Positions 13,191 to 42,112 of a DNA stretch of 54,595 nucleotides are shown here, piece after piece. The stretch is taken from positions 1 to 54,595 of the forward strand of contig NZ_JAGDXI010000038.1 in NCBI RefSeq assembly GCF_023256325.1, in the 5' to 3' direction. This stretch comes from Caldisphaera sp. (lineage in GTDB: Archaea > Thermoproteota > Thermoprotei_A > Sulfolobales > Acidilobaceae). Below the pieces are notes generated by a model. The model did no database searches. It had not been told where the DNA came from and was given only the letters and a program-made list of their open reading frames with translations. Position 1 is the first letter of the stretch. Each line of letters begins with the position of its first letter. A program made the translations under genes and the position numbers.

Positions 13191-13362
13191 TAAAAAGAAA
13201 GCCTTGCCCCTTCCAAAGGCGGGGAGGAAGTCAGAATAAAAACTATAGTAAGCTTTTTACTACTATTTTTCATAATATTAAATGCCCAATGAAGAATGGT
13301 ATTACCACTGACTTTGATGATAAGGCTGAACTGAGGGCACAATTAAAAACAAGTTATTAAAA
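13191..13362 (+). mobile_element. Remnant resembling an IS200/IS605 right end
   Basis: In a 428-bp gene-free AT-rich spacer, bases 13199-13236 are suddenly GC-rich. CCCC and GGGG pair around an inner CC-AAA-GG hairpin, followed by GGAGGAAGTCAG. GCGGGGAGGAAGTCA-type strings close the TnpB-associated right ends of many crenarchaeal IS605 elements, where the guide-RNA scaffold lies. A 63-codon frame (13169-13360) crosses it (KRKPCPFQRRGGSQN) and reads like a tnpB tail. No intact transposase is present. The identification rests on sequence feel and a hairpin. Confidence 0.4.
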
Positions 13363-13458: not shown

Positions 13459-14826
13459 TTGACAAAGAGCTATAAATTCGATGTAGTGATAGTGGGCTTA
13501 GGTCCAGCAGGGTCTACATTGGCTTATTTTTTAAGAAACAGCGGTTTGAATATTGCAGGAATTGACATGGTTGACGAAGATGGTCTTTGGGGAAAGCCTT
13601 GCGGAGATGCTATAGGGAAACATCATTTCGAAGAAACAGGACTCCCTTATCCTGAAGGAAAGGAATTAAGCCAAAAGGTTGACGGCATAGATATAATAAG
13701 CCCTAAAAAAGATATTGTCTTAAGGGTTAATGGAGAAGGTTTTGTAATAAATAGAAATCAATATGGAAGAAAACTTGTGAAGGAAGCCGAAAAATCAGGT
13801 ATTTCAATATTTTTAAAGACAAGAGTTACTAATCCAAAAATTCAAGAAAACAAGTTAGTTGGAGTTAACGCTATAATGCCAAATGGAGAAAACGCTATTT
13901 TTGAAGGAAATATAATTGTTGACGCAACAGGTAATGGGGGACTTTTGAGAAGGCTTCTACCAAAAGAATGGCCACCAAATGAACCATTAAATCCTTTAGA
14001 CACTAACATAGCATATAGAGAAATAAGGGAATTAAATTATGAAGTAGAAGAACCTAGCTATTTGAGAATTTATTTAGACCAAGAAATTTCACCAGGAGGT
14101 TATTGGTGGTACTTCCCTGAAGGTAAGGATAAAGCAAACATCGGCCTGGGAGTTCAAGGAGGTATGAATTATCCTGCTCCCAATACTATATTTAAAACAA
14201 GACTTGAACAAATCGATTTAGTTAAAAACTATACAAGCGTTATTAACGCTTCTGGCTCAAAAGTTCCAACAAGAAGACCTGCAAACACCTTAGTATGGAA
14301 TAATTTTATAGGTATAGGAGATAATGGATATACTGTAAACCCAGTTCATGGAGGAGGTATGGGATACGCCTTTGCTTCTTCATATTATGCTTCCCAAACT
14401 ATTGTTGAGGCATTTCAAAACAAAGATTTTTCAGCAAAAAGCCTCTGGGGAGCAAATCTTAAATATATGAAAGCCATAGGGAAAAGGCAGGCTGGTCTAG
14501 ACATATTTAGAATATTTTTGCAAAGGTTATCGAATGATGATATACAATATGGATTAAAACATGGAATAATGAAAGCACAGGATGCCTATGAGACAAGCGT
14601 AACAGGCGAATTAAGTGCTAATATGGGAGTTTTAGAGAAAGCTACATTAGCCTTAAAAATGCTTGGTAGACCATCGCTTTTATCAAAATTAGTTATAGTT
14701 GCAGATTATATGAAGAAGGCCCAGAAGGCTTATGATATTTATCCACAAAGTCCTCTAGAACTAAATGATTGGGTTTCATATATAACATCTTTATATAAAG
14801 ATTATAAAGCAAAACTAGGAATCTAA
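13459..14826 (+). CDS. Geranylgeranyl reductase family FAD enzyme
   Basis: Saturates the isoprenoid chains of archaeal membrane lipids, using FAD and a ferredoxin-type donor. 455 aa: N-terminal dinucleotide fold VIVGLGPAGS (9-18), the conserved GKPCGDAI near residue 47 and the second FAD element IGIGDNGYTVNP followed by HGGGMGYAFAS. The start is TTG 13459 behind TTGGGGAA. It is tail to tail with a UbiA prenyltransferase (four-base overlap), and the pairing points to lipid or quinone chain chemistry. The exact substrate (digeranylgeranyl lipid or geranylgeranyl-PP) is not decided. Confidence 0.88.
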   Translation: MTKSYKFDVVIVGLGPAGSTLAYFLRNSGLNIAGIDMVDEDGLWGKPCGDAIGKHHFEETGLPYPEGKELSQKVDGIDIISPKKDIVLRVNGEGFVINRNQYGRKLVKEAEKSGISIFLKTRVTNPKIQENKLVGVNAIMPNGENAIFEGNIIVDATGNGGLLRRLLPKEWPPNEPLNPLDTNIAYREIRELNYEVEEPSYLRIYLDQEISPGGYWWYFPEGKDKANIGLGVQGGMNYPAPNTIFKTRLEQIDLVKNYTSVINASGSKVPTRRPANTLVWNNFIGIGDNGYTVNPVHGGGMGYAFASSYYASQTIVEAFQNKDFSAKSLWGANLKYMKAIGKRQAGLDIFRIFLQRLSNDDIQYGLKHGIMKAQDAYETSVTGELSANMGVLEKATLALKMLGRPSLLSKLVIVADYMKKAQKAYDIYPQSPLELNDWVSYITSLYKDYKAKLGI

Positions 14827-18611: not shown

Positions 18612-18830
18612 ATTTGGAGATTTCCTCTAGTGCTATTATGTATCAAACGTTAAACTTACGAGTCCACCTCTTATATTAGCTTACTGGTAACCCCGGGTTT
18701 CCGAGAGCTGCTCTTGCAGGGTGGCGAAGGGCTTAGGGAGACCGCAATGAAGTCAAGGGAGGCAGTCAATGACTATTAAAGATAATCAATGCCCGCTCTT
18801 GGCTGAGTGGTAGCGAAGAAAAGAAAGCAT
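18612..18830 (+). ncRNA. Unassigned GC-rich structured RNA candidate
   Basis: About 220 bases without a convincing reading frame that are far richer in G+C than the surroundings, the usual mark of a structured RNA in an AT-rich thermophile. Visible helices include CTGC-TCTT-GCAG (near 18708-18719), a near-palindrome GGTAACCC/GGGTTTCC just before it, and CTT-G-GCT/AGC-G-AAG closing a seven-base loop near 18799-18819. I do not find the SRP GGAAGGGAGCAGC loop or the RNase P GAGGAAAGUC element, so neither is claimed. A decayed insertion-sequence guide RNA is an alternative. Strand is set by the upstream TATA-like box. Confidence 0.45.
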
Positions 18831-31155: not shown

Positions 31156-32199
31156 ATGGCAGAGCTCAAAACTGAAGACATTTATCAGGCGCTAAATGAA
31201 AGACTTGAAAGACAGGGATATCACTTAATCGGAAACCATAGTTCTGTAAAAAAATGCTATTGGAATCATGCAGCAATAGCAGAACATAGGTTTTGCTATA
31301 AATCAAAGTTTTATGGAATTGAAAGTCATAGATGCATTCAGTTAAGTGTTTCTAATCATTGGTGTTGGAATGCATGTACACATTGTTGGAGATTAAGGCC
31401 TCAAGATGTTGGCTTAGAATGGAATGAAACTAAAATGCCATATAACGATGATCCCAAATTTATTGTTGAAAATGCTATAAAAGAATATAGAAGAATTATG
31501 AGTGGTTATAAGGGCAGGCAAGGAACTGATATGAAAATGTATCAAGAAGCTATGAACCCTAAACATGTGGCAATAAGTCTAACTGGAGAAGCAACTTTAT
31601 ATCCAAGGTTAGGGGAATTAATAAAAGAATTTCATAATAGAGGTATATCTACTTTTCTAGTTACAAGAGGTATTAGACCGGATATCCTGGCTAATCTAGA
31701 AGAGGAGCCCTCTCAATTATATATTAGCCTTGAAGCCTGGGATAAAGAATCATACAATTTATTTAACAAGCCGTTAGTTCCAAGGGGATGGGAACTTACT
31801 TTAGAGACATTGGGAATGTTGCCAAGCTTTTCGTCAACGACAGTTTACAGGATTACTGTAGTTAAAGGCTTTAATGATAGCGATGAAGCGATTAAAGGTT
31901 TTGCCAAGCTAATTAAGTTAGGGCTTCCGAATTACGTTGAGGTAAAGGCTTATATGTATGTCGGAGCAAGCAAAGGGAGACTTACTAGAGAAAATATGCC
32001 AAACTACGATGAAGTAAAAGAAGTTGCTAAAAAGATAAGTAATGAGAGCGATTATCCTATAGTTAGTGAAAGTGTCCCTAGTAGGGTTGTGCTATTAAGC
32101 AACATGGAAAAGCCAATAAGATATGGAAATGGTATGCCAATGGGATGGAGCAGCGTAGAAGAGGAAGAAAGCCCTGGAGAATACGATGATGAACCATAA
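31156..32199 (+). CDS. taw1: 4-demethylwyosine synthase Taw1 (TYW1)
   Basis: Radical SAM enzyme that condenses pyruvate with N1-methylguanosine at position 37 of tRNA-Phe to give 4-demethylwyosine, the first tricyclic step of wyosine. 347 aa. The radical SAM cluster motif is CWNACTHC near residues 72-79 (Cx3Cx2C), and upstream Cys residues (KKCYWNHAAIAEHRFC) supply the second [4Fe-4S] cluster. TGEATLYPRL is also typical. Starts at ATG behind AGGTGAA, eight bases after trxB. Confidence 0.94.
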   Translation: MAELKTEDIYQALNERLERQGYHLIGNHSSVKKCYWNHAAIAEHRFCYKSKFYGIESHRCIQLSVSNHWCWNACTHCWRLRPQDVGLEWNETKMPYNDDPKFIVENAIKEYRRIMSGYKGRQGTDMKMYQEAMNPKHVAISLTGEATLYPRLGELIKEFHNRGISTFLVTRGIRPDILANLEEEPSQLYISLEAWDKESYNLFNKPLVPRGWELTLETLGMLPSFSSTTVYRITVVKGFNDSDEAIKGFAKLIKLGLPNYVEVKAYMYVGASKGRLTRENMPNYDEVKEVAKKISNESDYPIVSESVPSRVVLLSNMEKPIRYGNGMPMGWSSVEEEESPGEYDDEP

Positions 32200-32202
32200 A
32201 AA

Positions 32203-32267
32203 AGCTCCCTGTGATTGAAAGATTCCAATTGATGTGATGATTTATGGGTGCAAGCTCTGAGGGAGCT
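32203..32267 (+). ncRNA. Box C/D guide sRNA, predicted target U34 of tRNA-Ala(UGC)
   Basis: Terminal stem AGCTCCC (32203-32209)/GGGAGCT (32261-32267). Box C is a slight variant, GTGATTGA (32211-32218); D' is TTGA (32229-32232); C' is a perfect GTGATGA (32234-32240); D is CTGA (32257-32260). The guide before D, GGGTGCAAGC (32246-32255), is exactly complementary to GCTTGCACCC of tRNA-Ala, with G-U pairs at both flanks. The fifth base before D (A at 32252) pairs with U34, so 2'-O-methylation of the wobble base is predicted. The D' guide is AAGATTCCAA; its target is unknown. The RNA contains the start codon of the next gene. Confidence 0.8.
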
Positions 32268-32570
32268 AAAGCTAACAAAGAAATAAAAAATATATTAATA
32301 AAGCTTCTTGAAAATTATGAAGAATTTTTTAGTAGGGATGAGAGATTAAACAGTGATGGAATTAGATTATATAAAAGAGTATCATATTTTTTGCATTTAA
32401 TGGATAATAAAACTTTAGTAAATTTATATAAAAAATCCTTTAGGAACCCTACAATAGAAAACATAATAGAGTTTGCAAAATATTTTATAGATGCGGAAAA
32501 TATTAAAATAAGTACGTTAAATAATATTTATTATGAAGAAATGTTTGAGTTTAATGATGTTAATGTATAA
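32244..32570 (+). CDS. Hypothetical protein, 108 aa, start inside the C/D sRNA
   Basis: Unrecognised helical protein (IKNILIKLLENYEEFFSRDE, IRLYKRVSYFLHLMDNKTL). ATG 32244 is the only usual start in the frame, and it lies within the C/D RNA between box C' and box D, so DNA here codes for both guide and protein. The C' box GTGATGA, three bases before the ATG, is the only ribosome-binding-like sequence. The 3' end overlaps the convergent secreted-protein gene by 40 bases. Length and lack of stops support a gene; the function is unknown. Confidence 0.55.
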   Translation: MGASSEGAKANKEIKNILIKLLENYEEFFSRDERLNSDGIRLYKRVSYFLHLMDNKTLVNLYKKSFRNPTIENIIEFAKYFIDAENIKISTLNNIYYEEMFEFNDVNV

Positions 32571-42011: not shown

Positions 42012-42038
42012 TCCTAGGAGAAACGATAATTATCGCGT

Positions 42039-42112
42039 GGGCCGGTAGCTCAGACTGGAAGAGCGCTCGGCTTGCACCCGAGAGGCCCCGGGTTCAAATC
42101 CCGGCCGGTCCA
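42039..42112 (+). tRNA. tRNA-Ala (UGC)
   Basis: 74 bases: acceptor GGGCCGG/CCGGTCC with the G3:U70 alanine identity pair, D stem GCTC/GAGC, anticodon stem CTCGG/CCGAG with loop CTTGCAC (anticodon UGC), T arm CCGGG-TTCAAAT-CCCGG, A73. CCA is not encoded; CATTTTTATT follows, so CCA must be added. Its anticodon arm GCTTGCACCC is exactly complementary to the D guide of the C/D RNA at 32203-32267. Confidence 0.96.

Follow-up and report, generated by a model that had tools for sequence, protein, structure and literature searches.

Positions 32203-32267 of the window, by which we mean the whole stretch of 54,595 nucleotides analyzed here, hold a predicted box C/D sRNA gene. It begins three bases past the stop codon of taw1 and runs into the 5' end of a conserved 108-aa open reading frame (ORF), whose ATG falls within the sRNA, a point that the initial annotation had missed. 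The 1.52-Mb genome is that of a hot-spring archaeon and has Candidatus Hestiella and other Acidilobaceae as its nearest named relatives. Genes for the C/D sRNP proteins fibrillarin, Nop5 and L7Ae were all found in it, those for fibrillarin and Nop5 lying side by side on another contig and two L7Ae-family proteins being encoded. The features of the locus, together with the tRNA gene that is the predicted target of the sRNA, are given in Table 1.

Table 1. Coordinates of the features discussed, numbered along the window
Feature	Position	Strand	Basis or remark
taw1 (4-demethylwyosine synthase TYW1, TIGR03972)	31156-32199	+	Synteny in 9 genomes, two genera
Predicted box C/D sRNA gene (whole RNA)	32203-32267	+	Layout, box scan, sub-threshold Rfam C/D matches
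Terminal stem, 5' arm AGCTCCC	32203-32209	+	Pairs with 32261-32267; covaries
Box C GTGATTG	32211-32217	+	5/7 to RUGAUGA; ATGATGG/ATGATGA in relatives
D' guide AAAGATTCCAA	32218-32228	+	Target search of the tRNA/rRNA set: none
Box D' TTGA	32229-32232	+	3/4 match
Box C' GTGATGA	32234-32240	+	7/7 match
Conserved 108-aa ORF	32244-32570	+	ATG inside the sRNA
D guide GGGTGCAAGCT	32246-32256	+	A32252, fifth base before box D, pairs with U34
Box D CTGA	32257-32260	+	4/4 match
Terminal stem, 3' arm GGGAGCT	32261-32267	+	Stem covariation
tRNA-Ala(UGC), target, intronless; predicted 2'-O-methyl site U34 = 42073	42039-42112	+	ARAGORN, Rfam

Anatomy of the sRNA and of the overlapping reading frame

Written out with its elements separated, the sRNA reads AGCTCCC-T-GTGATTG-AAAGATTCCAA-TTGA-T-GTGATGA-TTTATGGGTGCAAGCT-CTGA-GGGAGCT. 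The terminal stem of 7 bp described in the initial annotation is present, and the boxes C, D', C' and D occur in the order given there, at the positions of Table 1, but not all of them are of consensus form, as box C deviates from RUGAUGA in its final two bases and box D' is UUGA. The usual guide-box spacing of archaeal C/D sRNAs is about 12 nt. In the window the distance from C to D' is 11 nt and that from C' to D is 16 nt, with a gap of 1 nt between D' and C', versus spacings of 12/12 in the Hestiella relatives G001 and G002, where the boxes are near-canonical. The C'-D spacing is 15-16 nt throughout the subclade of the window (G000, G003 and G004).

A scan of the window for the C/D layout, in which a terminal stem of at least 5 bp was required, returned three places on the forward strand and none on the reverse strand, where shuffled sequence gave 0.1 on average, and the sRNA at 32203-32267 has the longest stem of the three. 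Another of the places, at 13282-13339, reads TGCCC-AATGAAGA-ATGGTATTACCA-CTGA-CTTT-GATGATAA-...-CTGA-GGGCA with a 5-bp stem and lies upstream of an ORF resembling FAD-dependent oxidoreductases (13459-14826); the third layout, at 18742-18811, is weaker and is located in a stretch without any ORF of at least 60 aa. No Rfam family reached its gathering threshold at the sRNA, where matches to C/D families scored 9-19 bits against thresholds of 38-55. Several of these sub-threshold matches are to C/D snoRNA models, and three cover 32203/32204-32267. The folding energy is unexceptional (z -1.2), which is no surprise, as a C/D RNA is expected to fold in this way.

The start codon of the 108-aa ORF is situated between box C' and box D, and this overlap persists across two genera. 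Searches with the ORF product gave no match to a Pfam or NCBIfam family. The product carries an invariant motif, NSDG..RL, and is conserved after taw1 in both genera.

The predicted target of the D guide and the D' guide

ARAGORN and Rfam place the ends of the tRNA-Ala(UGC) gene at 42038/42039 and 42112/42113. The 10-mer GGGTGCAAGC of the D guide (32246-32255), which T32256 separates from box D, is exactly complementary to G31-C40 of this tRNA and is flanked by U-G pairs at 30 and 41, just as had been proposed. The duplex has 10 Watson-Crick and 2 G-U pairs and covers the N+5 position, where at least 9-10 nt of complementarity is expected of an archaeal C/D guide. In archaeal C/D guides the methylated base is given by the N+5 rule, and A32252, the fifth base of the guide when counted from box D, faces U34 (42073 in the window; T at position 1535 of L082). 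The assignment of the wobble base in the initial annotation is therefore upheld.

The same annotation had judged a chance match of ten bases at the wobble position improbable, and the numbers bear this out. The 10-mer is found twice in the 1.52-Mb genome, once in the guide and once as the antisense of tRNA-Ala(UGC), where base composition predicts 0.3 occurrences. For a single guide, the expectation of an exact match to one of the 42 tRNAs in the wobble register is about 4e-5, and for an assumed set of 200 guides it is 0.8%. Three Ala isoacceptors (UGC, GGC and CGC) are present in the tRNA set of the genome. Only tRNA-Ala(UGC) fits at the methylation position, since tRNA-Ala(GGC) and tRNA-Ala(CGC) would put G34 and C34, respectively, opposite the guide A. 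Among the rRNAs and other tRNAs searched, none equals this match in register. On inspection tRNA-Thr(UGU), considered as a second target, has mismatches at 31 and 38 and was rejected.

No target for the D' guide AAAGATTCCAA was found among the tRNAs and rRNAs searched, where the 16S rRNA gene is interrupted on its contig and perhaps incomplete, and an rRNA target of this guide may sit in any 16S sequence that is missing. That gene (L165, G000:C27, 600-1790) is broken up by several A+T-rich insertions that look like rRNA introns of archaea, and Infernal recovers it in reduced form. A different D' guide, CCTCGCATC, is common to Hestiella and the second genus (L033, L034, L044, L045, L167 and L168) and has been replaced in the subclade of the window. 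Its best matches, in a search of the tRNAs of the window's own genome, were to the D-arm or position-26 regions of tRNAs (L131, L092/L124), with several G-U pairs. The resemblance of its complement to such sequences suggests that the ancestral sRNA may have been a double tRNA guide.

Conservation of the guide in the genus, a second genus and the order

All five same-genus genomes carry GGGTGCAAGCTCTGA directly after taw1. Pairwise column identity among these five was 100% for the D guide and box D, 52% for the D' guide, 40% for the spacer before the D guide, 73% for the end of taw1 and 72% for the downstream ORF, and the 18 nt at 32246-32263 were the only place in the alignment where at least nine consecutive bases did not vary. 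Loss of the guide in relatives that keep the flanking sequence had been named as the outcome to speak against the sRNA; in the five genomes the reverse is seen.

A second genus keeps the order taw1-sRNA-ORF as well, in four genomes. When the nine loci are taken together, 90.5% of the cells of the terminal stem are paired and double changes are seen at four of its seven pairs; each of 500 shuffles, and every slid version, fell short of the observed covariation score. The guide is conserved along with its tRNA target across species, with one exception: in the second-genus genomes G013 and G063 it reads GGGCGCAAGC, which places a C opposite A37, and in G013 the tRNA-Ala target is nevertheless unaltered.

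A conserved guide with the same 10-mer was found well beyond these genera. The pattern GGGTGCAAGCNCTGA gave 31 matches in 30 of the 214 genomes of the order and none when reversed as a control. A C or C' box of at least 5/7 was present at the expected upstream distance in 22 of the 31, compared with 9% at random positions. At least four families of the order have the guide with a D-type box at loci other than this one. It precedes D in the family of the window; in several other families box C' follows the guide, which therefore precedes D' there. Two of the matches, L069 and L070, look like coding coincidences, and family f11 of the order had no match to the pattern. Outside the class, two matches in about 325 genomes were taken as chance.

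The count for GGGTGCAAGCNCTGA is a lower bound, because further C/D RNAs with the guide have a D box of CCGA or ATGA. These copies (in G010, G018, G007 and G019, and two in G028) came from fetching further sites of the 10-mer in the family of the window. The one in G010 has a 9-bp stem, GGATCGGTC/GACCGATCC, while the two Ala-U34 guide sRNA copies of G028 (L187 and L189) both have the D box CCGA and the stem CCGCC/GGCGG. A looser pattern, ATGAN{4,10}GTGCAAGNNCTGA, added only coding-looking matches outside the GGG form (L110, L111 and L113-L115). The tRNA arm CTTGCAC-CC is common to most of the guide-bearing genomes examined, and in G143 and G145 the arm has U32, giving a G-U pair.

Interpretation and comparison with known guide RNAs

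The recurrence of the same guide in so many related archaea argues that the sRNA guide is real. The reading that we hold to be highly probable is that 32203-32267 encodes a C/D sRNP guide that methylates U34 of tRNA-Ala(UGC) and is probably cut from a taw1-sRNA-ORF transcript. The wobble base of this tRNA very probably receives its methyl group under the direction of a small guide RNA, and a standard C/D sRNP acting in this way is the simplest account. The upstream part of the transcript is probably taw1, and processing from it fits the view in the literature that most archaeal C/D sRNAs have no promoter of their own (PMC7994747). Once released, the sRNA would be bound by L7Ae, Nop5 and fibrillarin and would base-pair through its D guide (5'-GGGUGCAAGC-3') with tRNA-Ala(UGC) at nucleotides 31-40, where the 2'-OH of U34 would be methylated by fibrillarin. 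Both the transcription and processing of the sRNA and the methylation of U34 in vivo are steps that we infer from the genomic data. A U34 stiffened in this way would be expected to favor GCA over GCG, an effect made plausible by the existence of a separate tRNA-Ala(CGC).

It is conceivable that there is no sRNA, that a protein gene (MGASSEG...) simply starts in this segment, and that both the tRNA match and the conservation are due to the protein. The guide indeed lies in frame and is translated as GAS[STP]EG in the nine genomes of the two genera, the ORF is conserved, and the GGT to GGC change in G013 and G063 is synonymous. The codon pattern in the overlap nevertheless argues for an RNA constraint rather than a protein constraint. 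Within the genus the five guide codons GGT GCA AGC TCT GAG have no synonymous difference in any pair of genomes, and the GASSEG segment has 6 of 60, all in the next codon, GGA/GGG, which lies inside the stem; the remainder of the ORF has 267 of 626. Between genera, the free base of the guide next to box D varies most, and its changes alter the amino acid (S, P or T). In addition, the 5' arm of the stem and box C are upstream of the ORF, the former covarying with the 3' arm, and the guide occurs at unrelated loci with in-frame stops (L053, L056 and L059). An origin of the conservation in the protein alone consequently appears the most improbable of the explanations considered. It is scarcely more probable that the element serves mainly as a leader whose k-turn binds L7Ae and so regulates translation of the ORF, the guide being secondary. 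The position of the start codon between C' and D, the synteny in two genera and the known repression of mRNAs by L7Ae through leader k-turns (PMC5539422) would suit such a leader, but it would need no 10-nt guide complementary to a tRNA, and the guide is still found in lineages that do not have the ORF.

The sRNA might also be real and its D guide weak, or aimed at another main target in this species, as could be supposed from the compressed C'/D' half, the long C'-D spacing and the orphan D' guide. The guide is strictly kept in exactly the subclade that has the 15-16-nt spacing, and the search of rRNAs and other tRNAs yielded no rival in register, so that we regard a weak or redirected guide as very unlikely. 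Somewhat less unlikely, though still doubtful, is a dual use of one transcript segment, either as a wobble-guide sRNP or as the start-codon region of the conserved small protein. Through L7Ae or assembly of the sRNP, wobble methylation of the tRNA would then be linked to how far this protein, encoded next to the anticodon-loop enzyme Taw1, is expressed.

If the segment is read as a wobble guide, tRNA-Ala(UGC) is added, with good support, to the predicted targets of wobble methylation by guide RNAs, here in an order of heat-loving archaea, and Um34 in this tRNA is a direct prediction that can be tested. That the guide is strictly retained even as its locus and its placement before D or D' change is a clear sign that selection acts on the target and not on the RNA gene.

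Guide-directed methylation of position 34, Um34 included, has already been described in archaea (PMC7668247, PMC7994747). For tRNA-Gln(UUG) of Sulfolobus acidocaldarius, an sRNA predicts Um34, a modification that mass spectrometry has also revealed (Ziesche 2004 and snoRNAdb, as cited in Wolff 2020, PMC7668247). The present RNA is likewise a C/D sRNA predicted to direct Um34 in a tRNA, but its target is tRNA-Ala(UGC), its guide is different and it resides at another locus. Where Wolff et al. discuss these modifications, Um34/s2Um34 are named for Gln and Leu of S. acidocaldarius, not for Ala (PMC7668247). The Pyrococcus C/D sRNAs aimed at position 34 of tRNA-Leu(CAA), Leu(UAA), Met and Trp (PMC7994747) share with it a guide to the first anticodon base; they serve other tRNAs, and one of them, sR50, resides in the tRNA-Trp intron (PMC7994747), whereas here the RNA is intergenic and overlaps the start of an ORF. 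The tRNA-targeting C/D sRNA families of Pyrobaculum are similar in that one guide is aimed at a single tRNA around the wobble base and the other is an orphan (Lui 2018, as summarized in PMC7994747), as is the case here. An Ala(UGC) wobble guide was not reported in the literature searched, the Pyrobaculum list of Lui 2018 itself lying outside that search. Overlap with the 5' end of an ORF has been described for 7% of archaeal C/D sRNA genes (Tripp 2017, as cited in PMC7994747), and such overlaps are stated in the same review to lower expression of the downstream gene. The locus resembles them in having the downstream start codon inside the guide region and differs in that its overlap persists across two genera. 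What lies at 32203-32267 is, on this comparison, a real and well-supported sRNA, with a new predicted target for a type of guide RNA that is already known, since guide-directed Um34 has been established for Sulfolobus tRNA-Gln.
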